DNA from: Rudaea sp. 3F27F6
Lineage (GTDB): Bacteria > Pseudomonadota > Gammaproteobacteria > Xanthomonadales > Rhodanobacteraceae
Length of the DNA: 64,000 nt
Assembly: GCF_005503555.1 (NCBI RefSeq)
Contig: NZ_SCNG01000006.1
Coordinates: 124,001-188,000 of the forward strand
Direction: 5' to 3'
Both the position numbers and the translations under genes were made by a program. Below, piece by piece: positions 4,968 through 23,572 of the stretch. Each line of letters begins with the position of its first letter. The first letter of the stretch is position 1. The notes below the pieces were generated by a model. The model had not been told where the DNA came from. It searched no databases and worked only from the letters and a program-made list of their open reading frames with translations.

Positions 4968-5140
4968 GTTTTCTGGCGCATCTCTCAGCACTACCAGGAA
5001 GCTTCCGTCGCATTGCACGAAATCCGCGTGGATACGTTGCCGCGCTTGCCCTCGCCACTTGTCATTGCAAGCGCGAGTCAGACCTGGGCGTCCCGTCGCT
5101 AGACGCACGCGGCCTGTCCTTCTTCTCGATGCTGCCACCG

Positions 5141-5162
5141 AAAATGCGGGCTGAGCCCGCAC
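5141..5162 (-). terminator. Intrinsic terminator of the H-NS-like gene
   Basis: On the minus strand the palindrome gtgcgggctcagcccgcat is followed by tttt, directly after the stop codon of the gene at 5169. About 170 bases between this and the tRNA terminator hold no gene. Confidence 0.65.
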
Positions 5163-5168
5163 TCTCCG

Positions 5169-6230: not shown

Positions 6231-6623
6231 ATGCATATCTGGCGCGCGAGCCTTTGCGTGCTCTTTTTCGTGTGCGCGATTGCTCGTGCCCAAACCGCCG
6301 TTTTCGCAGCAGTCTCGATGCCACTGGCGGGACAGCACGCTGTCCACGCAGTCGATATTTCGATCTCGCCAAGCGGCTTGGTCGATGTCGGCGGCAACTG
6401 CATTGGCTGCGCGCGCAGCATCGATTTCGTCGGCACGCCGAACACACACGCGACCGATGAGCAATTCCCACCGAACTTGACTGACGAGGGCGGCAGCGAC
6501 AACGCGCTCGGCTCGTTCGCCGCGGTCATTTCCAAGCCGATGGCTATGCCCGCGCTGTCGGATTGCCTGGCACCGCTCAATGGCCTACGGCATCGCGACC
6601 GTATGCCCCGACTGCACGCTTAG
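6231..6623 (+). CDS. Small secreted protein, unknown function
   Basis: A 130-residue frame starting [21 protein letters not shown], a clear type I signal peptide with cleavage probably after ARA. Ribosome site agggggatt lies just before the ATG. The mature part is rich in small residues and has one CxxC (NCIGCARS), with no recognisable domain. The last 20 residues are basic and unlike the rest, so the C-terminus may be worn or frame-altered. It ends 62 bases before the collagen-like gene on the same strand and may share its promoter. The start at 6231 was preferred over an upstream ATG because it begins the signal peptide. Confidence 0.5.
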
Positions 6624-6685
6624 TTCACAGCATCCACCGACCTAACGGTTTCTTCCTTGCCTCGCCGAATACCGGAGAACTTACG

Positions 6686-8578
6686 ATGACTGCCCTATTC
6701 CAACGCCCTTCGATGTTGACGCTTGCCATCACCGCTGCTTTGACCTTTGCCAACGCGTCCGCACAGGATGTCGCAGTCACGCCGCCGAGCGGCGGCGGTT
6801 TCGTCGTCAAGGACAGCAGCGGCAATGCAGTCCGTTTTCGTATCGATGCAAGCGGCAATCTGATCCTGCCCGGTCTCGGCGGTGCGGCTCAGCAAGGCGC
6901 ATTGGTCTGCTTCAACTCGGCGACCGGAACGCTAGGCCCCTGTGTTCCCGGCACGGGAGCGGGTAACGGGCCTGCCGGTCCGACCGGCGCTACCGGTCCC
7001 GCCGGATCGACCGGTCCGACAGGTGCAACCGGCGCAGGAGCGACAGGTGCGACCGGCGCCACGGGACCGATCGGTGCAACAGGACCGATCGGTGCAACCG
7101 GGCCCGTGGGACCGACCGGAGCGGGCGGAACCGGCAGCGTTGGTCCGACCGGCGCAACAGGGCCGATCGGTGCAACCGGTCCTGCCGGGCCGACGGGCGC
7201 CGGCGGAACCGGCAGCGTCGGCCCTACTGGCCCGACCGGACCCAATGGCGCAGCCGGAGCGACCGGTCCGACCGGGCCACAGGGTATTCAGGGCATTCAA
7301 GGTGTCACTGGACCCACAGGCGCAACGGGTACGACAGGTGCAACAGGCGCGGCCGGCTTGGTCTATCAAGGCGTGTGGAATAGCGCAACGGGCTACGCAA
7401 TGAACGATGTCGTGTCCCATAACGGATCGAGCTACGTTGCAGCGACGAACAATTTCAATAATGCGCCCGACTCCAACCCCACGGTATGGAGTGTTCTGGC
7501 GCAACAGGGAGCAACCGGTGCGACGGGCGCGGTCGGGCAAACGGGTGCAGCGGGTCCGGCGGGCACGATTGGCGCAACCGGTGCGACGGGACCCGTTGGA
7601 ACGGCAGGCTCGGCCGGGGCAACCGGTCCTACTGGAGCAACCGGCGCGCAGGGTACGACGGGCCAAGTCGGCCCGCAGGGTCCGCAAGGACCCGCAGGCG
7701 TTTCGGGTTCGGGTGCCGTTTACGGGGACGGCTCTGCCGGCGCGCTGACCGTCAGCGGCATCACCGACTTCAGCCAGCTTTTGTCGAATTACAACTTCCA
7801 GTTCACGACGATCAACATTAATGCCGGCGCTACCCTGATCGTGCCAAGTGGGATGGTGCTGCGCGCGACCGGCAATTGCACAATCAACGGCACCATCGTC
7901 GTGTTGAACGGTGCGCAGACCAGCAACAACGGCACGGCGACCCTCGGTATCGGCTCGGCCATCCCGGGCTCACCGTTCGGCGGCATCGGATCGAATGTGT
8001 CTCAAGCTGGGCAGATCTCGAAATCCATTCTCGGCGGCGGTAGTGGCGCGCGTTCGACGTCGGTCACCAGCGGCTCGGCCGGCGGTGGTTCGGTCTCGAT
8101 GCTATGCGGTGGTATCTACACGCTCGGTGCCGCGGGCGCCATCAACGTCAATGGTCAAAACGGTGTCGCGGCGACCGGAACCGGCACGGTGGGCGGCGCT
8201 GGCGGCGGCGCTGGTGGCTTTGTCGCGATCGCCGGCAAGACCAGCATCACCGTCAACGGCACCATTCTCGCCAACGGCGGTACGGGCGCGAACGGCTTCA
8301 GTTCGGCAGGCAACAACGCGCTTGGCGGCGGTGGCGGTGGCGGCGGTGTCGTGCACTTCTTCTCGCCGTCTACGCCAGTCGTCGGCGGCAGCGTGCAGGT
8401 CAACGGCGGATCGGCAGGTAGCGCCAGCGGTGGCACCGGCACTACTCCCGCGTTTGGCGGTGGCAGCAGCGGCGGCAATGGCGGCAATGGCGGCAGCACA
8501 ACGGTCACCGCGACCGGTGGTTCCAACGGCTATATCTTGACGACGATTGTGAGCAGCCCGGAAAACTTCTTCCTCTAA
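6686..8578 (+). CDS. Secreted collagen-like (Gly-X-Y repeat) protein
   Basis: A 630-residue exported protein. Residues 1-26 are a signal peptide ending ANASA. A small domain follows ([29 protein letters not shown], then two cysteines). Next come Gly-X-Y triplets rich in GPT and GAT (about residues 95-225). They are broken by a 50-residue insert, [20 protein letters not shown] onward, which resembles the small carbohydrate-binding fold seen in chitinases and phage fibres. A second Gly-X-Y block (about 276-340) leads to a Gly/Ser/Thr-rich C-terminal half with NGTI/NGGTG repeats, probably a beta-helix. The GPTGAT pattern recalls BclA-type collagens and suggests a trimeric surface fibre. Start: ATG after ggagaacttacg. 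A strong terminator follows. Confidence 0.85.
6968..7705 (+). repeat. Tandem Gly-X-Y coding repeat, in two blocks
   Basis: Degenerate 9- and 18-base units of the type ggtccgaccggcgcaacc run from 6968 to about 7358 and again from about 7512 to 7705. They are separated by the non-collagen insert. The blocks are prone to slippage, so length may vary between strains. Confidence 0.8.
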
Positions 8579-8605
8579 GGCACGTTCGGCTCTCGCTTCG
8601 CATGC

Positions 8606-8630
8606 AAAAGCCCCCGAATCGGGGGCTTTT
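8606..8630 (+). terminator. Terminator of the collagen-like gene
   Basis: aaaagcccccgaatcggggg followed by ctttt forms a perfect 9-bp hairpin with a short loop and T-run, 27 bases after the stop codon. Confidence 0.9.
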
Positions 8631-8700
8631 CTTTTGCCGGCGCGTACCGATGAACTGTGCCCTGGCGCAGTTGCAATATCAGATCACTCAGTGTCTGTGA

Positions 8701-9495
8701 TCACGGCGAACCAGCGGTCGGATCGGCCTCGTGCATTTGAATCTCGCGCGCGCGAAATGCCTCGATCTGCGCCGCGGCTACATCTTTTTCGACAACGATG
8801 TGGCTGATCGCGTCGAGTTCGACAACCTGGTAGGCGGACAGCGCGCCCAGTTTGTCGGTGGTGACGACCACGGCGGTCTCGCTGCTGACTTCGATCATTC
8901 TTCGTTTGAACAGCGCTTCCTCGCTGTCCGTTGCCCATAATCCGTATTCCGCATCGACGGCGCAGGCGCCCGGGAAACACAGATCTGCTCGCAGGCGTCG
9001 AAGCTGCTCCAACGCCTGCGCGCCGATCACGGCGCCGATGCGGGGTTCCATGCGGCCGCCGATCATGAGGATCTCGAATCCTTCGCGTGCCATCAGGCAT
9101 TGGGCGATGTCCGGGGCGTTGGTCACCACGGTCAATTGCTGCCTTTCTGGCAACGCGGTCGCGATAGCGTAGTTGGTAGAGCCGGCATCGAGCAGCAGCA
9201 CTTGGCCCGGCCGCACCAACTTGACCGCAGCACGCGCAAGCGCTTGCTTGCGTGCCGAGTTTTCTTCGCGGCGTTGCGGGAGCGGCGCGAACGCGGGTGT
9301 CGGCAGCAAGGCGCCGCCGTAGACGCGGCGGCACACCCCCTGCGCGGCCAGCTTATGCAGATCGCGTCGGATGGAGTCCTCGGACACTCCGAACAACGCG
9401 GCAAGTTCGGTCGCCGTCACGCGGCCATGTTCGCGTAGCCGATCCAAGATGGCTTGTTGGCGTTCCTGCGGAAGCGTTTCGGCCGAGGTACTCAT
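8701..9495 (-). CDS. DeoR/GlpR family transcriptional regulator
   Basis: A 264-residue sugar-phosphate-sensing repressor. Residues about 8-62 form the DeoR helix-turn-helix (ERQQAILDRLREHGRVTATE, then LAALFGVSEDSIRRDLHKL, the family signature). A linker RRVYGGALL leads to the DeoRC sensor domain with LLLDAGSTNYAIATALP, the phosphosugar-binding loop. Length is normal. The ATG at 9495 follows ggag. It is divergent from the MFS permease at 9747, with 251 bases between, and probably controls it; the inducer is unknown. Confidence 0.92.
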   Translation of the reverse strand: MSTSAETLPQERQQAILDRLREHGRVTATELAALFGVSEDSIRRDLHKLAAQGVCRRVYGGALLPTPAFAPLPQRREENSARKQALARAAVKLVRPGQVLLLDAGSTNYAIATALPERQQLTVVTNAPDIAQCLMAREGFEILMIGGRMEPRIGAVIGAQALEQLRRLRADLCFPGACAVDAEYGLWATDSEEALFKRRMIEVSSETAVVVTTDKLGALSAYQVVELDAISHIVVEKDVAAAQIEAFRAREIQMHEADPTAGSP

Positions 9496-11014: not shown

Positions 11015-11037
11015 TCTGGCGGAGAGAGAGGGATTCG
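11015..11037. repeat. attL: 23-bp copy of the tRNA-Ser 3' end
   Basis: A 23-base direct repeat of 23478-23500, starting tctggcggagag and ending gggattcg. It reproduces the CCA end, acceptor strand and part of the T-arm of tRNA-Ser(GCT). The match stops at 11037, where the following bases differ from the tRNA. This is the left junction of the integrated element. Confidence 0.92.
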
Positions 11038-11348
11038 TATGCACTCTCTCCCACTCCCCATCCGCCGGGCTTCCTTCGCGTCGAACCCTACCGGTCGATG
11101 ATCCAAGGTAGTGGTCCAAGCGCAGAGCCTACCACAGCCCGCCCGTCTTCTTCCGTTCCTGCCGAACCCCTGCCGGCGCAGCCGGTGCTTCGGGCGCGCC
11201 GGACGCGCGCCCCAGGGGCACGAAGTGCCCGCCCGCGCCCGGAGGGCGCAAGGAGGGGGCCGGTCTGCTTCAATGCGGCAGCCGGTCACCCCTGTGCGAC
11301 GCCCCGGCCACCTTCCGGGTTTTCGTCAGGTGCCTAATCTCATAGAAA
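11038..11348. other. Left end of the element, no gene seen
   Basis: About 310 bases between attL and the IS21-type insertion. Very GC-rich with several short palindromes (for example gggcacgaagtgccc near 11216). Open frames here have no ribosome site or recognisable product. Confidence 0.5.
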
Positions 11349-11466
11349 TGTTCCCCCTTCTCGCATGAGGAAGAACCGGGCCTCGCACTCCAGGAGTCCG
11401 GTCGCCCAAGCAAAAGGCCCGCCTAGGCGGGCCTTGTCTCAGGTCGGGGCGGCCGGGGCTTCGGGG

Positions 11467-12183
11467 TCAAGAGCGGGGCGAACGAACCCCGCTCAGTTCC
11501 AGACGCTGGGAACGAGCCACCAGCCGATCGGCCAGGTGTTCCAGCAGAACCGCATCGGCACACCGCTCATACCATTCGGGCACCGGCAACGGAGAGGCGA
11601 CGAGCAGGGATTGTGCTCTGGCTTTTTTCGGCCGTTGAGTGAGCACGGCCAGCATCAGGTTCAACGCTTCCGCGTCCAACGGGGTCAAGGCGAAATCATC
11701 CACGATCAGCACATCCTGCCGCGTCCACTCCTTCCAGAACGCCGGCTCTGCTTTCCGGTCCCGCGCTGCCTGCCGCTCCTCCACCAGGCCCCGCAGCGTG
11801 GCATACCGCACGCGCCGGCCCGCCCGCAGGGCCTGGTTCCCCAGGGCGCACAACAGCCAGGTTTTTCCCGTGCGGACGGGGCCCGTAAACAGCATGTGGT
11901 GCCCCTGAGTGAGCCACGTGCCGGATTTCCAGCCGTCCAGCACCGTGGGGGACAATCCCCCGCCGGTGCCGGTCTCCTCCAGGCAGGCCGCCTGCGGCAA
12001 TCGGGCCCGGAGACAGGCCCGCGCCAGACGTCGGCCCTGCCGGCCCTGCTCCTGGGCCTCCAGCAACACGTGAAGGGTGGCCTCTCCGGGCGCGGCCACC
12101 TCGGGCGACAGGTGGGTCCAGGCCTGGGCCATGTCCGACAAACGCAGACGGCGCAGGCGATCGGCTTGCGTTCCGGTCAACAT
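11467..12183 (-). CDS. istB: IS21-family ATP-binding helper protein IstB
   Basis: A 238-residue AAA+ ATPase (DnaC-like) that helps the IstA transposase choose and capture target DNA. Walker A is GPVRTGKT, Walker B is VLIVDDFAL, and the C-terminal LLEHLADRLVARSQRLELSG is typical. Length is normal for IstB. The ATG at 12183 overlaps the istA stop by seven bases, so translation is probably coupled. The longer frame extending to 12612 in this phase is shadow of istA. Confidence 0.92.
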   Translation of the reverse strand: MLTGTQADRLRRLRLSDMAQAWTHLSPEVAAPGEATLHVLLEAQEQGRQGRRLARACLRARLPQAACLEETGTGGGLSPTVLDGWKSGTWLTQGHHMLFTGPVRTGKTWLLCALGNQALRAGRRVRYATLRGLVEERQAARDRKAEPAFWKEWTRQDVLIVDDFALTPLDAEALNLMLAVLTQRPKKARAQSLLVASPLPVPEWYERCADAVLLEHLADRLVARSQRLELSGVRSPRS

Positions 12184-13685
12184 ACCGCCTCCCCCGCCGC
12201 CTGGCGGTAGAACTCCGGACCGCGCAGCGCGGGGCGGACGGGCGGATCGAGTGCGGCCACGATCGCCCGCAACGCCCCGATCGACCGGCTGCGTTGCGCG
12301 AGGGCTTGCGCGGCCGCCCGCTCCAGCGTCACCGCCCCATGCCGGTGGGCCAAGCCCCGCATGCTTTGGACTGCGGGCATGCCCTGAAGCGGGATCTCCT
12401 GGGCGAAATGGTGGGCGGCCAGCGACCGGGTGGCGGGGCCGATGGTGTCCGCCCAGGCCAGCAAGGTGGCCGGCGACTGGCCGACTTGGGACCGATGGGA
12501 TTCGGGCAGATGGGCGATGTCGGTCGTGCGCCCGCCGCGCACCGTACTCGCCGCATGATCGGCCACACACTGGCCCTCGCAGAACAACCGCACGCGGTCC
12601 GCCACCCGGCACGGCTCGACGGGTTTTCCCGCCCAGGTGTGCGGCACACTGTAGTAGTGCTTACCCACGCAGACGTGGTAGTCCGGCGGCACGGTCTGCG
12701 CGCCGCCCCAGGACGCATAGGCGAACGGTGTGGCGGGCAACGGCACCAGTGCCGCCCGCTCGGTGGCCTCGAACACCGCCCGCCGAGTCCCGGCGCGCTT
12801 CTGGAACGGACGCTCATTGAGCCGGGTCAAGAGTTCGGCGACCGCCGCGTTGGCTTCGGCCAGCGAGAAAAACACGCGGCGGCGCAACCGGGCCAAAATC
12901 TGCCGCTGGACCATCAAGACGGCACCCTCTACCGCCCCTTTGTCGCGGGGGTGGCCGGGGCGCGCGGGCAGCACGGCCATGCCGTAGTGCCGGGCGAAAT
13001 CCAGATAGTTGCGCTGGATCGTCGGGTCGCGTCCTGCCTTGGTGACGGCCGCCTTCAGGTTGTCGGGGACCAGCATGCGCGGAGCCCCACCGAAGAACGC
13101 CAGCATGCGGACATGGGCGTCGAGAAAATCCGGCACGCTTTGGCTGGCGCAGCCGCAGGCAAAGATGTAGTTCGATGCGGGCAAGACCGCTACGAAGATT
13201 TCGATGGGCACCCGCTCTCCGGTTTCCCGGTCCTGATAGCACAGCCGCCGGCCGGAAAAGTCCACGTAGACGCGATCGCCGGGCAGGTGGTGCTGGCGCA
13301 GACTCAGGCCGCGCGGCTGCCCGTAGGCGGCCTGGTTGAGCCGCCGCAGAAACTGGGCATAGGACAACCGTTCCGCCTCCGGGCGCGCCTGTGCATATTC
13401 CTCCCAGAGCAGGCGGCCGGTCACGCCGGGTTCCTCCAACTGCGGCACCAGGGCAGCGAAATCCGGCAGAGGTTTGCGCGCGAGCGGCCGGGGCTGGCGG
13501 AAACAGGCGCTCAGCGCCGAGGCCGGCAGATGGCGCAGGGCCTCCCACGTGTAGCCGCGTTCCCGAATCCGGCGGCGGTATCGGCCCACGGTCGTTTTGG
13601 ATACAGCCAGGGAGGTGGAAACCAGCCGCGCGGACAAGTCGGATGCGGCCAGACGAACCAGGTCAAACAATAAGGGATGATTCAC
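12177..13685 (-). CDS. istA: IS21-family transposase IstA
   Basis: A 502-residue DDE transposase. An N-terminal helix-turn-helix (LVSTSLAVSKTTVGRYRRRI) is followed by the integrase core with catalytic acidic residues at RVYVDFSG, LVPDNLKAAV and DKGAVEGAV, then the Mu-type beta-barrel region. The GTG at 13685 was chosen because gaggag lies eight bases upstream; an in-frame start at 13718 adds 11 residues with no support. All three catalytic segments are intact, so the insertion may still be active. Confidence 0.92.
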   Translation of the reverse strand: MNHPLLFDLVRLAASDLSARLVSTSLAVSKTTVGRYRRRIRERGYTWEALRHLPASALSACFRQPRPLARKPLPDFAALVPQLEEPGVTGRLLWEEYAQARPEAERLSYAQFLRRLNQAAYGQPRGLSLRQHHLPGDRVYVDFSGRRLCYQDRETGERVPIEIFVAVLPASNYIFACGCASQSVPDFLDAHVRMLAFFGGAPRMLVPDNLKAAVTKAGRDPTIQRNYLDFARHYGMAVLPARPGHPRDKGAVEGAVLMVQRQILARLRRRVFFSLAEANAAVAELLTRLNERPFQKRAGTRRAVFEATERAALVPLPATPFAYASWGGAQTVPPDYHVCVGKHYYSVPHTWAGKPVEPCRVADRVRLFCEGQCVADHAASTVRGGRTTDIAHLPESHRSQVGQSPATLLAWADTIGPATRSLAAHHFAQEIPLQGMPAVQSMRGLAHRHGAVTLERAAAQALAQRSRSIGALRAIVAALDPPVRPALRGPEFYRQAAGEAVC

Positions 13686-13769
13686 GGTAAAGCTCCTCAA
13701 GCAAGACGCGGAGCACACACCCGCCCGAGCCGCCCAGCGGGCCGCTTGACAAAAAGGGGGGATGAACCA

Positions 13770-14260
13770 GAATGGCGCCGCGGTGCGTCTACAGTCCGCA
13801 GCATCATCGAAAGGCCCGGGTCTCGATCCCGGGCCTTTCGTCGTTTTGGGGGGAAGAATCGGGGCGGTCGCGTCCTGGGCGGGCGGTCTCCTGAGGCGAA
13901 AACGGGCCTCACCTTAGCCGCAGACCGGGCGCCGTCAAGGCCCCGATTTTTAGGCGGAAACAGCCCTATGGCGAATTGACTTTGGAGCGCCGTTTGTGGA
14001 GAACGGCCCTTCGCAAAACGGCGTCAGAGATGGATTTTCGTAAGGCCGCCGAAAAGGAACCTCCAAAAACCCAAGCGCGCTGCGGCTTCCACAGGGGCAG
14101 AAAGTATACAAATCCCTAAATCCCTTTTTCCGCATCGGCGGCGGCTGGGCACTGTGGGCCTGGACGAAAAAAGGCCGCCATAAAGGCGGCCTTTTCGCAA
14201 AGGTCGCAACTTCCTCGGCTACGCTACGCACGTGCGACGGTCATATAAACCATACGAAGA
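13770..14260. other. Non-coding stretch of the element with two hairpins
   Basis: About 490 bases without a convincing gene. It holds two terminator-like hairpins: 13809-13847 (aaggcccggg/cccgggcctt followed by tcgtcgtttt) and 14167-14197 (aaggccgcc/ggcggcctttt). A 93-codon minus-strand frame (13950-14231) has no ribosome site or recognisable motif. Confidence 0.5.
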
Positions 14261-14333
14261 GCCCCGGGTGGGACTCGAACCCACAACCTCCAGATTGCGA
14301 ATCGTGTGCTCTATCCACTTGAGCTACCGGGGC
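14261..14333 (-). tRNA. tRNA-Arg-like gene with defective anticodon stem
   Basis: A 73-base cloverleaf on the minus strand. Acceptor gccccgg/ccggggc and T-arm gtggg-ttcgagt-cccac are perfect, and the D-arm gctcaagtggatagagc has the A20 typical of tRNA-Arg. The anticodon arm cacga-ttcgcaa-tctgg has two non-pairing positions out of five. The loop reads CGC, an alanine anticodon, inside an Arg-like body. No CCA is encoded and the base at position 73 would be U. Probably a degenerate or specialised element-borne tRNA. Confidence 0.5.
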
Positions 14334-14403
14334 GCCTAACCGCGCGTGAACTTTATCACGCCTATCCCTTGCGTTTCGAGTAATGTTGTGGATAATGGCG
14401 GTC

Positions 14404-14438
14404 GCGAATCGTGTGCGAACCTTCGGGTTCGAGCTACC
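14404..14438. repeat. Partial second copy of the tRNA-Arg-like anticodon/D-arm
   Basis: gcgaatcgtgtgc (14404-14416) repeats 14297-14309 of the tRNA-like gene exactly. gagctaccg follows 14 bases later, as in the D-arm and acceptor of the same gene. The rest of the tRNA is absent. This may be a scar of integration or excision at that tRNA. Confidence 0.55.
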
Positions 14439-14439
14439 G

Positions 14440-14470
14440 AAAAGGCCAGTGAAAACTGGCCTTTTTCTTT
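14440..14470. terminator. Terminator next to the kinase gene
   Basis: aaaaggccagtgaaaactgg and then cctttttcttt: hairpin ggccagt/actggcc with T-run on plus and tttt on minus. It stands 57 bases beyond the kinase stop codon. Confidence 0.65.
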
Positions 14471-14526
14471 GCCTTAAAGAAAACTTCTGGGTATCCGCGA
14501 ATGGGTCTCATGGTTTCTATCCGTGC

Positions 14527-17289
14527 CTACATCGCCGATGCCTTCCGTTCTCCCGCCCTTGTCTCCGTGACCGCCGCCCGAAGTTCCTCGGCTTCCCGCG
14601 CCGGCACATAGTCGGCCGGACTGTCGGCGGCCTGGAAGCCCGCCACGGCCCGGTTGGCCCAGGTCAAGGCCGCGGCGCGGTCGCCTCGGCCGGAAGCCAG
14701 CATCGCCTGGGCCAGGCTCCACTTGGCCACGCCATCCTCCCCCGTCAGATACGCTCGGTTTGTTCGCACCCGATTCGGATCGAGCCGGCCCAGCAGTTCG
14801 GCCGCCTCGTCCCAATGTTGGCCGCGCAGGGCGACGATGGCAGCCACGTAGTCGATCATGTCCCCGTATTCGCCTTGGTCGTTCTCATGCTGGTGCGCCA
14901 GAGCCCGCACGTCGGCCACCTCTTTGCGGGCATCGTCCGCCCGGCCCAGACGGGCCCAGACGCCGGCACGGGTCAACCGGGCGGTGAGCACGGCCGGCTC
15001 CCACCCCTCGGCCAACGGCTGATAGAGACGCAAGACCTCCTCGATCGCCCCTTGCTGCTCGCCCCACTTCCCCAATCCGCCTTCAACCGTGGCCAGATTC
15101 GAGAGGGCGTCGATCGTGTCCGTATTGCCTGGGCCGAGCGCCTTCCGGCGGCCATCGCGAACCGCCTCGGCCACCGGCTCCGCTTCACGGTAGCGCTTTT
15201 GGAAGGTCAGGCTCATGACGAGGCGGTGTTGGAAATCCAGCGTGATCGGGTGTTCCGGCCCTTTCTCCCGGGTGTATTGCTCGATGGCGTCGCGGAACAC
15301 CCGATCGGCCTCGGCGTAGCGCTTCAACCGCAATAGGTCCACACCGTAGTTCATTCGCGCCCCGCTTTCCTGCGGGCCGTGTTCGGCGATCGCCCGTTCA
15401 TAACTCGCATGGCTATACGGCAGCGCCGCGGCGGGATCGTGTTGCCGGTCGGAGTAGTAGATGGTCCACAGCGAGTTCAGCGAATAAAACACGCCGGCTC
15501 CGCCGTCCTCGGCCGCGTGCGCGGCCTGCGTCAACGCATCCAGTTCCGGTTTGAACTCCACCTGGTCGTTGCGGGGATCGACGAGCCGCCGGGCCAGCAA
15601 GGCCATACGGGTCTTGAGGGTGGGCGTGGCGGACGGCCCGAGCGCGCGTTCATACAGCGCCGCCGCCTGGGCGTATTGCTGTTCCGTACCGTTCGCGTCG
15701 TTGCGGCTGGCCAGCGCCTTGGCAATCGACTCATGGAGCCGGGCGGCCACCTCGGGGTCCTGGGGGAACGCCGAATCGATGCGGCCGGCGGCGGTCTGGA
15801 TCGCCTCCCCCAGGGACCGCGTGCCCGTGCCGGCCTGGTCGACGTCGGCTTGGCCCAGCACGTCTTTGGTCAAAAACCCGAGCATGGCCCCCGACCCGCG
15901 CGCCTCTTTCTGCGCGGCGGCCGTGGCGGTTCGGGCTTGGACGAAAAGCACCGTGGCGACGACGAAGCCCACGATCAGCGCCGCCCACGCCGTGAGCACC
16001 CACGGCCGGCGGGCACGCGCCGCGGCCCAGCGCCGGGCGGCCTCCTCGGCCTGGGCGCGCTTCACTGCGTCCCGCTCGGCGGCCTGCCGCCGCTCGTCCA
16101 GGGTGCGCAGGCGCACCGCCAGCGTGCGCGCCGCCTCCAGCCGCAGGGCCGGGTTGCCGTTGGCGCAGGCGCCGATGTCCTCGCGCAGCAGCGGATCGGA
16201 AACGTCCGCTTCCCACCCCGCCGACAAGGGGCGCCTCAGGTCGCCGGCCACCAGTTGGAACAGGAGCACGCCCAGGGCGTAAAGGTCGGATTTGACGGTG
16301 GCCGACTGGCCGGCCAAGACCTCGGGCGCGACGTAGAGCGGCGTGCCGGTGAGCGAACCGGTGGCATCGAGGGTCGTGCCGGTTCGGGTGATGCCCAGAG
16401 CGTCCAGGCGCTCCGGTTCGAGCAGGCGCGCGCTGCCGAAATCGACCACGCGGGGGAGCCAGTGGCCCTCCTCTCCGTAGATCAGCAGATTGGTAGGCTT
16501 CAAGTCCTTGTGAAGGACGCCGAGCTCGTGCGCGGCGCCCACGGCGTCGGCCACCTCGGCGAGCCACGCCAGCCGTTCGGCCAGGGGCCAGGATTCCAGC
16601 CCGCCCCGCGCCCCGGCCCAGGTCTCCAGGTCCGGACCGCCGTCGTCGGCCTCCAGGAAATACGGCGCATCTTCGAAATCCCATTCCCGCACGCGCACGA
16701 ACGCGGGCACGTCGCCCAGGCTTTCATACAGCAGCCGGGACAACGTGGCCTCCCGCTTCAACGCGCTCAGGCGGTAGCCGTCCAGGCTGAACTTGAACAC
16801 CCGGGACTCTCCGGTTTTGGTGTGCTGGGCGCGCCAGACCTCCCCATGCTCGGACTGGTCCAAGGCGGCCATCAGGCGCCATTGCGGCCGGCGCGGCACG
16901 GCCTCGCCCGCCCGCAGGGCACGGCCAAGCGGCGCGCGCGGCAGGTGCTTGCCCTCCACCGGGCCCAGGATTCGATAGCCGACGCGGGCCACCGTGGTCA
17001 GCAGGGTTTGTGCCTCGTCGCCCAGGGCGCGGCGCAGTTTGCCGATGGCGTTGGTCAATGCACCTTCGACGACGATGCGGCCCCGCCAGACGTGATCCAA
17101 CAGTTCGTCTTTGGTGACGGTTTCGCCCGCGTGGCGCAGAAGCAACCCGAGCACTTCGAGCGGCTTGCGTTCGAGTTCCGTGGGCACCCCGCCGACGGTC
17201 AGTTCCCATTTGCCTTCATCGAACACCGCCGCGCCCGCGCTCGTGCCGAAACGCCACCGCATCAGCGGCTCCCCCCGATTCTCTGCCAC
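14527..17289 (-). CDS. Winged-helix / Hanks-type Ser-Thr kinase / TPR membrane protein
   Basis: A 920-residue multidomain protein. Residues 18-110 form an OmpR/CadC-type winged helix (RKPLEVLGLLLRHAGETVTK and VARVGYRILGP). Residues 136-400 are a protein kinase: lysine in VFKF (166), catalytic HKDLKPTN (260-267), DFG (283-285), APE (321-323). The glycine loop is degenerate; only HGEVW remains. A coiled basic stretch leads to one membrane span (429-450), then about 450 residues of TPR-like helices, probably periplasmic. DNA-binding, kinase and sensor parts in one chain suggest envelope-to-gene signalling. GTG start with strong aggaggg. It faces a three-gene envelope block at 17484. Confidence 0.88.
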   Translation of the reverse strand: MAENRGEPLMRWRFGTSAGAAVFDEGKWELTVGGVPTELERKPLEVLGLLLRHAGETVTKDELLDHVWRGRIVVEGALTNAIGKLRRALGDEAQTLLTTVARVGYRILGPVEGKHLPRAPLGRALRAGEAVPRRPQWRLMAALDQSEHGEVWRAQHTKTGESRVFKFSLDGYRLSALKREATLSRLLYESLGDVPAFVRVREWDFEDAPYFLEADDGGPDLETWAGARGGLESWPLAERLAWLAEVADAVGAAHELGVLHKDLKPTNLLIYGEEGHWLPRVVDFGSARLLEPERLDALGITRTGTTLDATGSLTGTPLYVAPEVLAGQSATVKSDLYALGVLLFQLVAGDLRRPLSAGWEADVSDPLLREDIGACANGNPALRLEAARTLAVRLRTLDERRQAAERDAVKRAQAEEAARRWAAARARRPWVLTAWAALIVGFVVATVLFVQARTATAAAQKEARGSGAMLGFLTKDVLGQADVDQAGTGTRSLGEAIQTAAGRIDSAFPQDPEVAARLHESIAKALASRNDANGTEQQYAQAAALYERALGPSATPTLKTRMALLARRLVDPRNDQVEFKPELDALTQAAHAAEDGGAGVFYSLNSLWTIYYSDRQHDPAAALPYSHASYERAIAEHGPQESGARMNYGVDLLRLKRYAEADRVFRDAIEQYTREKGPEHPITLDFQHRLVMSLTFQKRYREAEPVAEAVRDGRRKALGPGNTDTIDALSNLATVEGGLGKWGEQQGAIEEVLRLYQPLAEGWEPAVLTARLTRAGVWARLGRADDARKEVADVRALAHQHENDQGEYGDMIDYVAAIVALRGQHWDEAAELLGRLDPNRVRTNRAYLTGEDGVAKWSLAQAMLASGRGDRAAALTWANRAVAGFQAADSPADYVPAREAEELRAAVTETRAGERKASAM

Positions 17290-17483
17290 GCGATCCCTCC
17301 TGTGTGAAGGGGCGGGAGTCTAGCGCGACCGCGTCCGAGGTTTCCACTGCCGAACGTCGGAAAAGTGCAGAAAAATCAATGCACTGGAATCCGTGTGGTT
17401 TTCGTGTGGACTCCGTGCGGACTCTTTGCCGGCCGCTGGGCGAGCGTGCGCGCCTGCCCTTTCCACCGTTCCCGGAGTGTGCC

Positions 17484-17822
17484 ATGCGTCGCCTGTTGCC
17501 TTTGCTGCTGTTCGCCGCCGCCCCTGCTGGGGCGAATCCCGCGCCGCACTATCTGAACGTGGTCAACAACTCGCCGGACACCCTGGCGGCGTTGGCCGCC
17601 CGGGTCCACGGCGGTGATCAGTGGACGCCCTTCGATGTCGGGCCGGACCGCACCTCCACGGTGCTTCTGGGCGGACAAACCGCCACCTTGGCTCTTCGGG
17701 GTGGGTGCGTGTTCGACCTGCGCGCCACGTTCCGGAACGGCCGCACCGTGACGGTCACGGACTTCAACGCATGCACAACGGCCACGCTCCATCTGGAGCA
17801 AGTCTTGCGAAAAGCCCAATAG
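17484..17822 (+). CDS. Small exported protein of the kinase locus, unknown function
   Basis: A 112-residue protein starting MRRLLPLLLFAAAPAGANPA, a signal peptide probably cut after AGA. The mature part (HYLNVVNNSPDTLAALAARV, later GGCVFDLRATFRNGRTVTVTDFNAC) looks like a small beta-rich periplasmic domain with two cysteines that could form a disulfide. Ribosome site ggagtgtgcc precedes the ATG; a longer in-frame start at 17304 is less likely. It is the first gene of a plus-strand block, divergent from the kinase gene with 194 bases between. No family recognised. Confidence 0.65.
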   Translation: MRRLLPLLLFAAAPAGANPAPHYLNVVNNSPDTLAALAARVHGGDQWTPFDVGPDRTSTVLLGGQTATLALRGGCVFDLRATFRNGRTVTVTDFNACTTATLHLEQVLRKAQ

Positions 17823-17876
17823 CCGAATGGTCCGCACCGCCCTGCGTGGCACGTCTTTCTCTCTTCCGGAGTTCTC

Positions 17877-18257
17877 ATGCGTTTCGTTCTGCTCCCGCTT
17901 TTCCTGTTGTCCTTGATGGCTGGTTGCGTGTCGTCCGGCACGAAGGTCGATCCTGACAAACTGGCCGGCTTCCAAAAAGGAAAAACGACCTACGACGACG
18001 TGGTGCGCGAACTGGGGCCGCCAAATCAGTCAACTGTGAACTCCGACGGGACGCGCACCGTGTCTTACACGTATTTTCAATCGCAGTCGGATGCGCGGTC
18101 CTTCATCCCCGTGGTCGGTGCCCTGGTCGGCAGCGCCCACACCGAAAACACCACCGTACTCGTGCTCTTCGATCGCCACGGCGTCCTGACGTCCTACCAG
18201 GCCACGCAGGGCGGCAGCACGCTCGGCACGGGATTGATCAGCGGGCAAAAGCAGTGA
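17877..18257 (+). CDS. SmpA/OmlA (BamE-like) domain lipoprotein
   Basis: A 126-residue lipoprotein. The signal MRFVLLPLFLLSLMAGC has the lipobox LMAGC, so Cys17 is likely lipidated. The mature part (DKLAGFQKGKTTYDDVVREL, then GPPNQSTVNSDGTRTVSYTY) follows the SmpA/OmlA pattern: a G-x-T-x-x-D-V-x-x-x-L-G-x-P segment and then beta strands. The hydrophobic stretch FIPVVGALVGSA is unusual. Strong cggag ribosome site. BamE relatives work in outer-membrane assembly; here the role is unknown. The next gene starts inside its stop codon. Confidence 0.75.
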   Translation: MRFVLLPLFLLSLMAGCVSSGTKVDPDKLAGFQKGKTTYDDVVRELGPPNQSTVNSDGTRTVSYTYFQSQSDARSFIPVVGALVGSAHTENTTVLVLFDRHGVLTSYQATQGGSTLGTGLISGQKQ

Positions 18258-19111
18258 GTTCCGTCTACGCGCTTCTCCTGCTTCTCCTCGTCTTTTGCGC
18301 CTATCAGACGGTGGTTCGACCGCGGCGGCCGGAGTTTTCCAGCGGCAAACTGCGGGTGTGGATCGACGAGGCCTCCCGCGAGTTTTGCGTGTCCACGGCC
18401 GAGGCCATCACCCCGTATCGGATCCCGCTCGGTTGCGTCGATGTCGATTGGTCGACCATGACCCAGAAGAAGGAGGTCTACGTCTCCCATCCCGGATCGC
18501 CCGGCTATTTTTCCGGAACCTCGGTGAACGCAGGAAGCACCAGTTATACCTCCGGACTCGTGGTTCCGGGGCTTCCCCCTGTCGCAGGCTGGATCAAAAA
18601 GACGGTCAAGACCGGAGAAACGTTGGTGGGCTTCTATCGCCTCACGGTGCCGGACTATTTCCATCGGAAATGGAGCGGCAACGAGTTCACCGCCCATGAA
18701 TCTTTTCGGGAACGGGTGGCGGCGGAGTTGATTGGCAACCGGGTTCTGATCGTGTTCCGGCTTTGGATGTTCCACCACCGCAAACGCCTGCGGCCGGACG
18801 CGTCGGCCCTGATGGCCGAATGGAACCGGGCGACCGGGCGGTTGCGCGACGAAGCGCAGCAGCGGGCGCGCGGCCTTCTGCATCCGATCGTGCTGTGCCG
18901 GTTCGTCGGGACGGTCCAGCCCGGCATCCGGTATCTGGCGATCGGCAAGGACGGCCGCGCCTTGTTCTTCGATGGCTCTCGATCGACGTCCCTGACCACG
19001 GCGGACATATCGGCGGTGGGCAAAACCCTGACCTTCCCCGTCGCGGATACGCGCGTGGAGATGCCCGTGCCGGACTATCTGGTGCGCGACGTCCAGAAGC
19101 GGTTTGCCTGA
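18254..19111 (+). CDS. Membrane-anchored protein of the kinase locus, unknown function
   Basis: A 285-residue protein. The GTG at 18254 overlaps the stop of the lipoprotein gene (GTGA), so the two are translationally coupled. Residues 4-21 (VYALLLLLLVFCAYQTVV) are a single N-terminal membrane anchor. The remainder is soluble, with a Ser/Gly/Tyr-rich middle (PGYFSGTSVNAGSTSYTSGL), a basic helical stretch (RLWMFHHRKRLRPD) and a beta-rich end. No cysteine lipobox and no recognised domain. Its place suggests partnership with the lipoprotein and possibly the divergent kinase. Confidence 0.65.
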   Translation: MSSVYALLLLLLVFCAYQTVVRPRRPEFSSGKLRVWIDEASREFCVSTAEAITPYRIPLGCVDVDWSTMTQKKEVYVSHPGSPGYFSGTSVNAGSTSYTSGLVVPGLPPVAGWIKKTVKTGETLVGFYRLTVPDYFHRKWSGNEFTAHESFRERVAAELIGNRVLIVFRLWMFHHRKRLRPDASALMAEWNRATGRLRDEAQQRARGLLHPIVLCRFVGTVQPGIRYLAIGKDGRALFFDGSRSTSLTTADISAVGKTLTFPVADTRVEMPVPDYLVRDVQKRFA

Positions 19112-19129
19112 TCGCCCCCCATCATCGAG

Positions 19130-20719
19130 TCAATGCCAGCGAGGACGATGCGCTGTCACGCCGGGATGGGCAGCGCGCGCCGGTGGGGGTGAGCCCGGAA
19201 GAGGCTCGTCCAGCCGGATGGGTCGGGCCGCGGCGGCCGGGCGTGGATCGGACGGAAGCGGATAGCGTTCCCGCCGGCGTTGCTCCCAGCGGTGCCACGC
19301 CTCACGGGCTTCCCGCTCGGTGGTCGCATACGCGGCCATGGCTTGGTCGCTGACCGCTTGGGCCGCCTGGCGTTCGCGCTCCTGGGCTTGCTTCAACCGT
19401 TCGCGCTGCCGGCTGCGGCGTTCGGCCCACTGCCGCCGGCTCGCCCGTTGCCATGCCTTGGGCTGCGGCTCTGCGTGGACACCCTCCCAGGCGCGTTGGG
19501 CCTTGGTGCTTTCGACCATGGCCAAGCCATGCGCATCACGTCGCCGGAGCGGCCGCGTTTGCGCACGCTCCCAAGTCGTTCGGGCTTCCTGCGCGTGCCG
19601 GAGCAGTCCCACGCACCGCGCATCTCGGTGGCAGTGCCGCGCCAGCGCCCGGAAATCGTCCCCTCCCAGCCGGTACTGCTGGGCATACGCCTCCAGTATT
19701 CGCCGACTGGCTTCGTCGAGGTGGGCGAGGTAATCCCGCACAAGATCGGCCTGGATTCTGAGTGTTTCCTCGGAGGCCCTTGCCTGTTCGTTCAATACCT
19801 GACTGCCTGCACCTTGGGCCATGCCCAGCCGGATGGGTGCTTGACCGGTAAATGTCCGAGAGTGTGGCGGCACGTTTTCGCGCCGACGGTCGGCTCGGGC
19901 TTGCGTCAACCCAGACCGCGTGGGGGTGGGCATCAAGCGGCCCTCTCGGTCAGCATGGGCCAAGATGGCCGCCAACCCCGTGCGATTCTGGTGGGCAATG
20001 GCCTCGTTTCCGGCAGCCCGATCGGCAGGCGCACCGCGGCGCCCCAGGGCCGTGGCCGACTTGCCGGCGTGCCGGGTCGCTTGGCGGGTCAAGCGTATGG
20101 CTTGGGCCACGTCGCCCGCATCTTCGGCGCTGCGCGCTTGTGCGGTCAGGGTGCGATGATCCACCCGTTCCGGCCGGCCCGCGCGTTCCAGATGCATATT
20201 GGTCAACGCTGCCACCGCGGCGCGCAGGGCTTCGACCTCCCGGGGACCGGTTTTCCGATCGTCCAGTTCGCGCACCTTCGTGGTGAACCCACCGGCATCG
20301 AGCCGCCGCGTGGAAAGGAGAAGATGAGCGTGGTGGTTTCGATCGTCGCCCCGGGTGTCGGGCGCGTGGATTGCGGCGGTCACCGCCACGCCATAGCGAT
20401 CGACCAGGAAACGGCTCAGATCGGCGGCGAGGGCTTCCCGTTGCTCGGTGGACAGTTCGACCGGTAAGGCGATTTCCAGTTCTCGGGCGACGGCGGCATT
20501 TTTGCGGGTTTCGATCCGCTCGGCGGCGTTCCAGACGGCGGAGAAGTCCGACGCCCAAGCCGGGGCGGATTCGGGGGCGAACGTGTGCACCGAGACGACG
20601 CCTTTTCGATGCCGGTAGTCATGCACCGTGCCGGTTCGGGCGTCCTGGATTTTCGCTCCGGCCCGGTAGGCAGCCGCGGCCGTCGCCGCATGTCCGCGCG
20701 ATCGGCTGAAGACCTTCAA
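19130..20719 (-). CDS. MobA/MobL family relaxase
   Basis: Mobilisation relaxase that nicks the element's oriT and leads single-stranded DNA to a recipient. The N-terminus KVFSRSRGHAATAAAAYRAG is the MobA/MobL signature; the catalytic Tyr lies in this region and the metal-binding histidines in DRNHHAHLLLSTRRL. The C-terminal half is Arg/Gln-rich coiled coil. As read, the gene starts at TTG 20719, but sequence typical of the family's first residues (AIALFHASLKVF) lies in frame upstream, where no ATG or GTG is found. The oriT is 160 bases upstream. Confidence 0.88.
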   Translation of the reverse strand: MKVFSRSRGHAATAAAAYRAGAKIQDARTGTVHDYRHRKGVVSVHTFAPESAPAWASDFSAVWNAAERIETRKNAAVARELEIALPVELSTEQREALAADLSRFLVDRYGVAVTAAIHAPDTRGDDRNHHAHLLLSTRRLDAGGFTTKVRELDDRKTGPREVEALRAAVAALTNMHLERAGRPERVDHRTLTAQARSAEDAGDVAQAIRLTRQATRHAGKSATALGRRGAPADRAAGNEAIAHQNRTGLAAILAHADREGRLMPTPTRSGLTQARADRRRENVPPHSRTFTGQAPIRLGMAQGAGSQVLNEQARASEETLRIQADLVRDYLAHLDEASRRILEAYAQQYRLGGDDFRALARHCHRDARCVGLLRHAQEARTTWERAQTRPLRRRDAHGLAMVESTKAQRAWEGVHAEPQPKAWQRASRRQWAERRSRQRERLKQAQERERQAAQAVSDQAMAAYATTEREAREAWHRWEQRRRERYPLPSDPRPAAAARPIRLDEPLPGSPPPARAAHPGVTAHRPRWH

Positions 20720-20877
20720 GGAAGCATGAAACAGGGCGATGGCGGGCGCTCCGGTGGGGCTGCTTTCCAGCCTATCGGGTGCCGGCGAATCGGCAAGGCC
20801 TCAGAGACGCGAGAGATCAGGAAAGCCCAGGGGCGGCGGCGCGCAGCGCCGGGGTCTGGGGCGGAGCCCCAGCGCAC

Positions 20878-20904
20878 GCAAACCGAAGGTTTGCCTAAGT
20901 GCGC
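20878..20904. other. Putative oriT of RSF1010/R1162 type
   Basis: A perfect 7-bp inverted repeat with GAA loop, gcaaaccgaaggtttgc (20878-20894), is followed at once by ctaagtgcgc (20895-20904). The IncQ oriT has the same order: an inverted repeat with GAA loop, then the nic core taagtgcgc. It sits between the relaxase start and the element tRNA, as usual for oriT. A further GC hairpin (ggggtctggggcggagcccc, near 20851-20870) precedes it. Matching of a MobA-type relaxase with this core supports the call. Confidence 0.7.
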
Positions 20905-21017
20905 TATTTGCTTTCCCGATTCTTTCAGGAGTAGGCTTTTCCGCACGGAGTGCCCAGTTTTGAAAGTGGCCTTATCACCCACACTATTTTCAAGATGATG
21001 GCAGCCACCACTCCTGT

Positions 21018-21090
21018 GCAGGTGTAGCTCAGTTGGTAGAGCGGAGGTGTGATAAACCTCGCGTCGACGGTTCGATTCCGTTCGCCTGCA
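21018..21090 (+). tRNA. tRNA-Ile(GAT), element-borne
   Basis: A 73-base cloverleaf. Acceptor gcaggtg/cgcctgc with one T-G pair, D-arm gctcagttggtagagc, anticodon stem gaggt/acctc closing gtgataa (anticodon GAT), T-arm gacgg-ttcgatt-ccgtt, discriminator A. CCA is not encoded, unlike the chromosomal tRNAs here except the defective one at 14261. The body is not the usual rRNA-operon tRNA-Ile. Confidence 0.8.
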
Positions 21091-21195
21091 CTTTGTGTTA
21101 GACTACTTGCACACAATCAGGCAGCTGCATGGAGCCAATGGCTCTGTGTTTTATCAGCCCCTAGCCCAGTGGGGGTTTGCCGAATAGATTGGGAG

Positions 21196-21227
21196 AAAAA
21201 ATGGCCCTATGCGGGGCCATTTTTTTT
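21196..21227 (+). terminator. Terminator after the element tRNA region
   Basis: aaaaaatggccctatgcggg then gccatttttttt: a 6-bp hairpin with a T8 run, about 105 bases after tRNA-Ile. It insulates the tRNA from the next genes. Confidence 0.8.
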
Positions 21228-21307
21228 GCTCAGTTTTACAGGGTGCAACCTTGCGCCCCTTCGTTTTTTTGCTATCAAGGTAGGAGCCCCCTCGCCGGAC
21301 TCCACGC

Positions 21308-21643
21308 ATGCCTTGCCCCGACGAAATCCGCCCGCTGCTCCACGAACTCCTCTACGTCATCGAGCGCACCCAGCGCGTCTATCGCTCTACCTTCGTTCAC
21401 GCCCCGCCACCCGATCGCGGTGATGGTTTCGCGCGCCTGATCGATCTGGCTGACCGAACGGCTCATCAGACCCGCACGGTCCTGGATGCGGACAGCGCGG
21501 CCCGGAGCCCCGCCTACGAGTTCCGGCCCTTTGGGCCGTTCCTGGGTCCGACACTGGCCCAACGCATGCGGGCTCGGCGCATGGCCAGCCCTCCGCCTAT
21601 GCCGCCGCCCTCGTCGCCGCGCCCTGGCCGGAGCCTCCATTGA
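21308..21643 (+). CDS. Hypothetical protein next to TraD-like gene
   Basis: A 111-residue protein (MPCPDEIRPLLHELLYVIER at its start). The first 70 residues look helical; the last 35 are Pro/Arg/Ser-rich and may be unstructured. No signal peptide, membrane span or recognised family. The following gene begins inside its stop codon (TTGA), so both are probably one transcript. Position beside integrase, TraD-like and mob genes suggests an accessory role in transfer or maintenance, which is inference only. No clear ribosome site before the ATG. Confidence 0.5.
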   Translation: MPCPDEIRPLLHELLYVIERTQRVYRSTFVHAPPPDRGDGFARLIDLADRTAHQTRTVLDADSAARSPAYEFRPFGPFLGPTLAQRMRARRMASPPPMPPPSSPRPGRSLH

Positions 21644-21906
21644 GCGCGCCGGATGAGGGAACGGACCGTCTGGCCGATCAGGTGACCAAGGCCGCCGAGC
21701 GTCTGGGGCAACTGCGCGCCCGGCAACTGCTGCGGCAGATGCGCATCGACACGCGGGCCCGGGAACAGGCGCGGCGGGAGGCTCATCGGCGCCGGCTGGA
21801 AATCGGCGCGGCCGTGTTGGAAGCCGGGTTCGATCTACCGGCCGCACACATCGTCGCTCGTCTGCGCCATTCGCTGGCGTTCGAACCCGGAACCTCAGCC
21901 CCGTGA
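21640..21906 (+). CDS. TraD/MobC-like conjugal transfer accessory protein
   Basis: An 88-residue, strongly helical and basic protein. The pattern AAERLGQLRARQLLRQMRID followed by RREAHRRRLEIGAAVLEAGF matches the small conjugal-transfer TraD proteins coded beside MobA/MobL relaxases, which end in R-x-x-x-L-G-x-x-V-x-x-A-G. Such proteins help relaxosome formation. TTG start overlapping the upstream stop by four bases. It is convergent with the integrase gene, 16 bases away. Confidence 0.65.
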   Translation: MSAPDEGTDRLADQVTKAAERLGQLRARQLLRQMRIDTRAREQARREAHRRRLEIGAAVLEAGFDLPAAHIVARLRHSLAFEPGTSAP

Positions 21907-21922
21907 ACGCAGGGGGTAGACC

Positions 21923-23392
21923 CTAGAGGACGCGGGCGATCGCGTCCAGGTCGATCCCCTCGAACGCCAGCACCCGCACGCCCACCGTGGTGAACGGCCC
22001 CGTGCCGACGCCGTGGAGCAACTCGGGCATCGACAGCGGACGGCTATAGACCGCCCGGTGCTCGTCGTCGATCTCGTGCCCGACGTATTGCGCCCGCGCC
22101 TCGGCCGCCATGCCCGCGGCCTGCAGATGCTCAATGGCGGTTCTCCGCAACGAATGAAAGCCCACCTTGGGGCCCTTTTTCCGCGAAGACGGGGGAAGCT
22201 CGACTTTGATGCCCAACGCGACCAGATACCGGCCAAAAGCCGAACTCAGCCAGCCGCCCAGGCCGTTCGCGGCCCCCGGCTGGACACCGGGCAAGAGCCG
22301 GGTTTCCCCCGCGGCCCGCAGCGCGGCCACGCGATCGCGCAAGCCGAGCCGGATCAAATCCGGGTGAACCGGCACCTCGCGGATGCTCACCTCGTTCTTG
22401 AGGCTCTGCCCTTCGCCCTCATCCGTGATCCGCACGCACCAGAGGCCGTGGACGTCCACGAAATCCACCAGGGCGATCTGCCCCACTTCGCTCACCCGGG
22501 CCCCCAGATAGAGCCCCAGGACGGCTCCCCATCGGGTCTTGTCGTTGAGGCGGGCCAACGCATCCGGGGAATAGATTTTCTGGAGTTCCTGGGGCGTGAA
22601 CGAGCGGAAGCCGAGTTTCTTCCGCTGCCGTTTTTCCCGCGCCAGATAGACGACGTGCCGGGCACCGGGGTTGTCGTCCCGGTCAAAGTGGTAGTAACCC
22701 GCCCCCTTGGCCCAGAGAAAGAATGCGGTCAAGTAAGACCCCTTATTGGTGAGGGTCGGCGTCGCGAGGCCGTTGCCGCGCAATGCAAGAAACCATTCGC
22801 TCACGTCCGTGCGGGTCACTTCGGACAGCGGCGCCTTCACCCCTTTCCAGGTGGCGAACCCATTCACGGCCGCCATTTTCTGGGTCAGGGTCTTGCGCGG
22901 CATCGTCGCCGGATCGAGGGTCAGCCGGTATTTTTGCGCCGCCTCGCCCAAGGCGATCGCCTTCACCTTGACCGCCGGGGGCGCCGCGGGGGACACGGCC
23001 ACCACCGGCTGCGCCGTCATCAGGCGCAATGCAGCCAACAGGTCGGCGTTGTCCTGGGGAGTACCGTCGCTCTTGGCCTTGAGGACCCGCCCCGTCAGCG
23101 GGTCGGCTTCGTATTCAAAGCGCCGAGTTTCTCCGCGTTCGACCTCCGCAAGGATGCGGTCCACGGAAGGAATCGGCGAACGCGGCATGAGGGCATCTCG
23201 GGCAGCGACGAAGAGCGCAGCATAACGCACCGTCAGCGTGTAGGCGCGCACCCGCGCCGCCTGCGGGCAGGTGGTCTGAAGGCTGCGCTTCACCACGCGC
23301 AGACCGAGTGCCGATTGGAGAACAGCCGGAACCCGAAGACGAAAATGCCAGGTGCCGGACGAGTGGCGAATCACATGATGAGCCAGGCGCAT
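21923..23392 (-). CDS. Tyrosine site-specific integrase of the element
   Basis: A 489-residue phage-type integrase with a DUF6538-like N-terminus (HHVIRHSSGTWHFRLRVPAVL), a SAM-like core-binding domain (about 150-245) and a C-terminal catalytic domain. The six residues of the active site are all visible, numbered from this start: Arg in GARVSEVG (299), Lys in SLKNEV (332), HxxR in HSLRRT (413/416), His in VGHEID (439) and Tyr in AVYSRP (449). It lies 88 bases from tRNA-Ser, the usual place for the integrase that inserted there. ATG 23392 was chosen; an in-frame TTG at 23410 adds six residues. Confidence 0.92.
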   Translation of the reverse strand: MRLAHHVIRHSSGTWHFRLRVPAVLQSALGLRVVKRSLQTTCPQAARVRAYTLTVRYAALFVAARDALMPRSPIPSVDRILAEVERGETRRFEYEADPLTGRVLKAKSDGTPQDNADLLAALRLMTAQPVVAVSPAAPPAVKVKAIALGEAAQKYRLTLDPATMPRKTLTQKMAAVNGFATWKGVKAPLSEVTRTDVSEWFLALRGNGLATPTLTNKGSYLTAFFLWAKGAGYYHFDRDDNPGARHVVYLAREKRQRKKLGFRSFTPQELQKIYSPDALARLNDKTRWGAVLGLYLGARVSEVGQIALVDFVDVHGLWCVRITDEGEGQSLKNEVSIREVPVHPDLIRLGLRDRVAALRAAGETRLLPGVQPGAANGLGGWLSSAFGRYLVALGIKVELPPSSRKKGPKVGFHSLRRTAIEHLQAAGMAAEARAQYVGHEIDDEHRAVYSRPLSMPELLHGVGTGPFTTVGVRVLAFEGIDLDAIARVL

Positions 23393-23446
23393 GCGGTCGG
23401 AAGGGTCCAACCGATGGGTCCAACGCCTCTTAGCCGTAAAAACGAC

Positions 23447-23470
23447 AAAGCCCCGAAAAATCAGGGCTTT
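23447..23470 (-). terminator. Element-supplied terminator for tRNA-Ser
   Basis: aaagccccgaaaaatcaggg then cttt; on the minus strand it is followed by gtcgttttt. It stands 10 bases after the tRNA-Ser 3' end, just inside the element, and would replace the ancestral terminator moved to 10974. Confidence 0.7.
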
Positions 23471-23477
23471 GGAAACA

Positions 23478-23500
23478 TCTGGCGGAGAGAGAGGGATTCG
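23478..23500. repeat. attR: 23-bp repeat within tRNA-Ser(GCT)
   Basis: Identical over 23 bases to 11015-11037. It covers the encoded CCA, the acceptor 3' strand and part of the T-arm, so integration leaves the tRNA intact. Confidence 0.92.
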
Positions 23501-23572
23501 AACCCTCGATAGAGCTTTTGACCCTATACTCCCTTAGCAGGGGAGCCCCTTCGGCCTCTCGGGCATCTCTCC
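23480..23572 (-). tRNA. tRNA-Ser(GCT)
   Basis: A 93-base class II tRNA with encoded CCA: acceptor ggagaga/tctctcc, anticodon stem ctccc/gggag with loop ctgctaa (GCT), long variable arm, T-loop ttcgaat. It follows csrA on the same strand, the common gammaproteobacterial order csrA-tRNA-Ser. It is the insertion target of the element. Confidence 0.96.

Follow-up and report, generated by a model that had tools for sequence, protein, structure and literature searches.

A putative ToxR/CadC-like membrane regulator with an inserted Hanks kinase faces an envelope gene cassette on a mobilizable element of Rudaea sp. 3F27F6

Introduction

In PknB-type Hanks kinases a cytoplasmic kinase core is joined through one membrane span to an external sensor part, and the links between bacterial Ser/Thr kinases and transcription have usually been traced via separate substrate regulators. 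The membrane regulator CadC consists of an N-terminal OmpR-type winged helix, a single span and a C-terminal domain on the far side of the membrane (PMC5430869), while the lipoprotein Sfx is a surface-exclusion factor of IncC plasmids and of integrative and mobilizable elements (PMC11493245). Here we analysed a 64,000-nucleotide stretch of DNA from Rudaea sp. 3F27F6 (contig NZ_SCNG01000006.1, positions 124,001 to 188,000; the window), in which a mobile element carries the gene of a 920-residue protein with a winged helix, a Hanks kinase core, one span and TPR repeats, divergent to three genes for envelope proteins. We think it fairly probable, as judged from sequence, that this protein is a ToxR/CadC-like kinase regulator that binds sites with a MACG core and controls both itself and the envelope operon of the element.

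Architecture and distribution of the kinase protein

The kinase gene and the cassette that it faces are arranged as follows.

14527..17289, minus strand: winged helix, Hanks kinase, membrane span and TPR protein, 920 residues (domain search and motif reading)
17392..17420, no strand assigned: predicted operator CGTGTGG N4 CGTGTGG N4 CGTGCGG, 11-bp period, reading CACG N7 CACG N7 CACG on the kinase strand (site scan)
17484..17822, plus strand: exported protein, 112 residues (signal peptide, one Cys pair)
17877..18257, plus strand: BamE-like lipoprotein, 126 residues (lipobox LMAGC)
18254..19111, plus strand: membrane-anchored protein, 285 residues, predicted C-in (N-terminal span)

The initial annotation, made from the letters alone, had read the large protein as winged helix, Hanks kinase, one span and TPR region, and domain searches bear this out. 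Trans_reg_C was matched at residues 36-107 (E 2e-13), Pkinase at 241-350 (E 9.7e-21) and TPR_10/TPR_12 in the TPR region, with the single span at residues ~430-449. The kinase motifs are VFKF with Lys 166, KREATL (178-183), HKDLKPTN (260-267), DFG (283-285) and APE (321-323). Hence the catalytic Lys, the HxDxKxxN motif and DFG by which a Hanks Ser/Thr kinase is recognised are all in place, and the catalytic Lys, Asp and Asn together with DFG are invariant across the four family members compared. Because the positive residues ARARRPW precede the span, we infer by the positive-inside rule that the winged helix and the kinase are cytoplasmic and that the TPR part is outside.

The same genome encodes three full-length paralogues besides the window copy. 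In whole-genome surveys, which scored the few top kinase candidates of each genome, the family was present in 39 of 234 genomes of the bacterial family, the sample used for all family counts below, and also beyond it, in five further families of the order Lysobacterales. At the loci inspected, the closest full-length relatives (~38-42% identity) are chromosomal; the winged helices closest to that of the window are found at two of the fetched loci, L021 (66%) and L106 (65%). Of 26 family genes that could be assessed, 15 are divergent to a gene for an exported protein, compared with 76 of 875 control genes; this count was made on related sequences with a crude signal-peptide predictor that missed the window lipoprotein. 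The kinase family is order-wide, mostly chromosomal and usually divergent to an exported-protein gene. No described winged helix-kinase-TPR family was found in the literature, most subscription journals lying outside the search.

A predicted operator between the divergent genes

The intergenic region between the kinase and exported-protein genes contains, at 17392-17420, the site CGTGTGG TTTT CGTGTGG ACTC CGTGCGG. It is the best 11-bp-period site of the whole window (its score was reached by 1 of 2000 shuffles) and the sole perfect match in the 5.7-Mb genome, with nothing else within two mismatches. The OmpR/PhoB-type regulator PhoP recognises 7-bp direct repeats with a 4-bp spacer (PMC4832192). 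The geometry at 17392-17420 is that of such OmpR/PhoB-type sites, and we regard it as a predicted operator. The same intergenic region gave no sigma-70-like promoter.

A similar signature recurs across the kinase family. When upstream regions were scanned for periodicity, 11 bp alone stood out, with 15 regions scoring at least 12 and 0-2 at other periods. AACG-N7-AACG lies upstream of 22 of 41 family genes and of 7 of 600 controls (0-1 for other spacers). The triple MACG-N7-MACG-N7-MACG, always on the kinase strand and with spacer 7 only, was found in 18 of 39 family upstream regions against 3 of 957 controls; both counts cover related family members, so they are not phylogenetically independent. 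Nevertheless, the spacer sequences vary between the members' sites, and the signature is therefore not plain sequence relatedness. The fetched loci, 1.32 Mb in total, contain four MACG triples, three of them at winged-helix loci. The CACG form is common to the window, L021 and L106, while AACG predominates in the main chromosomal group, a split that fits co-variation of the winged-helix domain and its site. The suggestion of the initial annotation that the kinase binds DNA directly is hence probably right, with binding predicted from the operator and the family triples.

The cassette proteins

The three genes opposite the kinase are present as initially annotated and lie at operon spacing, with a 4-bp overlap between the lipoprotein and anchored genes. 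The open reading frame (ORF) of the exported protein opens at 17304, and its likely start is the ATG at 17484. The lipoprotein had been called BamE-like: 10 of 18 family members match the BamE domain, which supports a BamE-like fold for the family, while the window protein itself has no Pfam match.

The profile search gave no Pfam family for the anchored protein, which had indeed been described as belonging to no known family. Its placement at the outer face did not survive: because the N terminus is uncharged and RPRRP follows the span, the body is predicted to be cytoplasmic. A sequence search of solved structures returned no convincing match. A phage or plasmid origin was rejected, as neither the anchored protein nor the kinase had a plasmid match and no viral contig encoding the anchored protein was found. 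It should also be pointed out that the exported family (loci L036-L065), with an invariant Cys pair and without Pfam match, is widespread and often adjoins a regulator gene.

The mobilizable element

Carriage by a mobile element, proposed in the initial annotation, was confirmed. The element spans 12.5 kb (11015-23500) and holds, besides the kinase/cassette block, the following features.

11015..11037, no strand assigned: left attachment (att) repeat, 23 bp, perfect, TCTGGCGGAGAGAGAGGGATTCG; in L235 the left flank runs directly into the tRNA-Ser side
11467..13718, minus strand: IS21 istA/istB pair, inserted in the element (domain search)
19130..20719, minus strand: MobQ / MobA-MobL relaxase (domain and relaxase search)
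21308..21906, plus strand: two small ORFs lying between the relaxase and integrase genes, which may encode mobilization accessory proteins; without Pfam family
21923..23410, minus strand: tyrosine integrase with DUF6538, adjoining tRNA-Ser (domain search)
23478..23500, no strand assigned: right att repeat, 23 bp, overlapping the 3' end of tRNA-Ser(gct) at 23480-23572

In a genome of the same genus (L235) both flanks are contiguous with one repeat copy, which represents the empty site. The relaxase is the element's own, and no transfer-apparatus genes were seen among the ORFs of 11015-23500. By its genes, att repeats and empty site, 11015-23500 is an integrative and mobilizable element.

Two tRNA genes inside the element, tRNA-Ala (cgc) at 14259-14333 on the minus strand and tRNA-Ile (gat) at 21018-21091 on the plus strand, flank the kinase/cassette/relaxase block, and a tRNA-like fragment follows tRNA-Ala at ~14400-14450. 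Outside the element, window positions 6965-7690 hold a coding region for collagen-like Gly-X-Y repeats with a 9-nt period.

Exchange of regulators in front of the envelope genes

The anchored family is present in 10 of the 234 genomes, the lipoprotein family in 49 and the exported family in 80. When named genomes were scanned for the anchored family, the sole match was Pinirhizobacter soli, already among the relatives found; this species shares its family, Rhodanobacteraceae in the NCBI taxonomy, with the genome of the window. At loci of the anchored family (L014, L015, L073, L074, L076, L077, L079) the anchored gene is typically accompanied by XRE and by a gene for an exported protein or a lipoprotein; relaxase (MobA/L) and integrase genes are often present as well. 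The lipoprotein gene stands beside XRE in the relaxase-bearing loci L181-L186 and L188-L190, and exported-family genes often neighbour genes for a LytS-like sensor histidine kinase, LuxR, XRE and sigma factors. In L181-L190 the XRE gene is divergent to the BamE-like lipoprotein gene, several kb from the MobA/L relaxase, a module that recurs in many elements; no described system for it was found in the literature.

L014 and L015 are the nearest relatives of the whole element. There a PAS-LuxR gene, an assignment that rests on weak Pfam matches, is divergent to the exported gene at the position of the kinase here, and XRE, a lipoprotein, the anchored gene, relaxase and integrase follow the exported gene in this order. 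Unlike in L014/L015, the XRE gene is missing from the window element. The kinase was beside no other exported, lipoprotein or anchored gene among the loci inspected, and no other element with the kinase was found among the best few candidates scored per genome. The initial annotation had treated the four genes as one set; without co-occurrence of kinase and cassette elsewhere, a fixed four-gene system was rejected. As the gene neighbourhoods indicate, the lipoprotein/anchored pair forms an accessory module that mobilizable elements carry under other regulators and to which the kinase does not belong; here the kinase appears to have taken over from the PAS-LuxR of related elements, ahead of the same envelope genes.

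Separately, L014 carries between integrase and relaxase (3901-8793) an apparent double-glycine-leader peptide gene with a C39-type peptidase ABC exporter, a bacteriocin-like cargo. A second region of the Rudaea genome (L021 7557-9057; also L246 and L247) has UmuC-like and large relaxase-like genes, with a MACG triple between a 202-residue protein and an exported homologue.

Discussion

We propose that the element-borne 920-residue protein belongs to a family of ToxR/CadC-like membrane regulators in the Lysobacterales with an inserted Hanks kinase, placed between the DNA-binding winged helix and the span, with the TPR repeats outside. The winged helix would bind tandem half-sites (core MACG) spaced by 11 bp in the divergent intergenic region, and the regulator would control its own gene and the facing exported/lipoprotein/anchored operon of the MobQ element. 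A periplasmic signal sensed by the TPR part may change the state of the kinase and thereby alter DNA binding. The regulator holds the place of the PAS-LuxR of related elements, and the XRE gene is absent from the arrangement. The controlled operon may serve mobilizable elements as an envelope accessory, a mating-related function (exclusion or mating-pair effects) being the most plausible one; we favour such a role since the module accompanies relaxases and Sfx is a known lipoprotein exclusion factor on mobilizable elements. A wider version, in which a whole family of one-chain proteins lets a periplasmic TPR sensor drive a Hanks kinase that sets the binding of its own winged helix at an 11-bp operator, and in which a mobile element recruited one member for an envelope operon acting in conjugation, is offered tentatively and with some doubt.

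The sequences show the architecture, the family, the operator signature, the regulator exchange and the recurrence beside relaxases; DNA binding, sensing, the link through phosphorylation and the role of the operon are what we infer from them. Several points weigh against the proposed regulator. The Gly-rich loop, already noted as degenerate in an otherwise kept core, reads LDQSEHGEVW rather than GxGxxG; the window kinase forms a long branch and may have diverged in function; and five kinases (L229-L233) as well as a few other upstream regions are without the MACG signature, which may serve autoregulation alone. The relatedness behind the family counts and the crude predictor tell in the same direction, as do the AlphaFold models, with a mean predicted local distance difference test (pLDDT) score of 43 for the anchored protein (3 sequences) and 55 for the exported protein (1 sequence), too poor for use.

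One alternative concerns the operon and not its regulator: the lipoprotein and the anchored protein might act in the recipient as surface or entry exclusion against the conjugation apparatus of a helper, at a level set by the kinase. The lipoprotein/XRE pair in relaxase-bearing loci of at least 10 genomes speaks for this. We nevertheless hold it to be rather unlikely, since the lipoprotein is BamE-like, a type known from phages and phage-like plasmids as well, and the predicted place of the anchored protein's body is the cytoplasm.

Less likely still, the kinase could be chance cargo beside a separately controlled cassette, its operator being autoregulatory only. Its isolation from the cassette among all other loci examined, the mostly chromosomal family and the unrelated partner genes that adjoin most family operators would be expected in that case. 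However, the exported-protein start follows the operator at a distance of 64-92 bp, which is activator range, and LuxR fills the same regulator position in related elements. Moreover, the closest exported relative in the same genome (~49% identical, L021) stands opposite a winged-helix membrane protein of 202 residues, without kinase, with a triple site.

An anti-phage defence module with the kinase as sensor, also raised initially, is very improbable: PADLOC PD-T4-6 models do match the kinase domain (E 1e-28), but these matches are centred on the kinase region with little else, dozens of kinase models match alike, the three cassette proteins have no PADLOC match and the partner genes elsewhere are regulators and relaxases. 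PD-T4-6 and other kinase defence systems, recognised by a full-length match with partner genes, were thus rejected in favour of generic kinase matches.

If the 920-residue protein is the regulator proposed, a kinase and a DNA-binding domain in one membrane protein would offer a possible direct switch from kinase to gene, and the concrete operator predicted for dozens of kinase-family members makes this link testable. The loci further suggest that mobilizable elements swap whole regulator types (PAS-LuxR, XRE, winged-helix kinase) before the same envelope genes, and that the lipoprotein/XRE module travels with MobA/L relaxases across the bacterial family.

Comparison with known systems

Like ToxR/CadC-like regulators, the 920-residue protein has an N-terminal winged helix, a single span and a far-side C-terminal domain. 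In those regulators a linker alone separates winged helix and span; here a Hanks kinase core occupies this position and the far-side domain is TPR. The layout of core inside, one span and sensor outside is common with PknB/Stk1-type membrane Hanks kinases, from which the protein differs by its N-terminal DNA-binding domain, TPR instead of PASTA and the degenerate Gly loop. OmpR/PhoB-type response regulators also combine a winged helix with tandem 7-bp direct repeats separated by 4 bp (PMC4832192), whereas the present protein is membrane-bound, lacks a receiver domain and has its kinase in the same chain.

The L014/L015 elements are likewise MobQ-type elements at tRNA-Ser, with an integrase 43% identical to that of the window, a MobA/L relaxase and, next to it, the exported and anchored genes in an unchanged order. 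The lipoprotein recurs in L015, in contrast to an unrelated 253-residue lipoprotein-like protein in L014, and PAS-LuxR and XRE regulators are found there instead of the kinase. With Sfx the window lipoprotein has in common a lipoprotein gene on a mobilizable element, a likeness of gene carriage; unlike Sfx, it is BamE-like and has an anchored protein as its partner. Taken together, a mobilizable element with an accessory module is ordinary, and what appears to be new is a family of kinase-bearing membrane regulators with a predictable operator.
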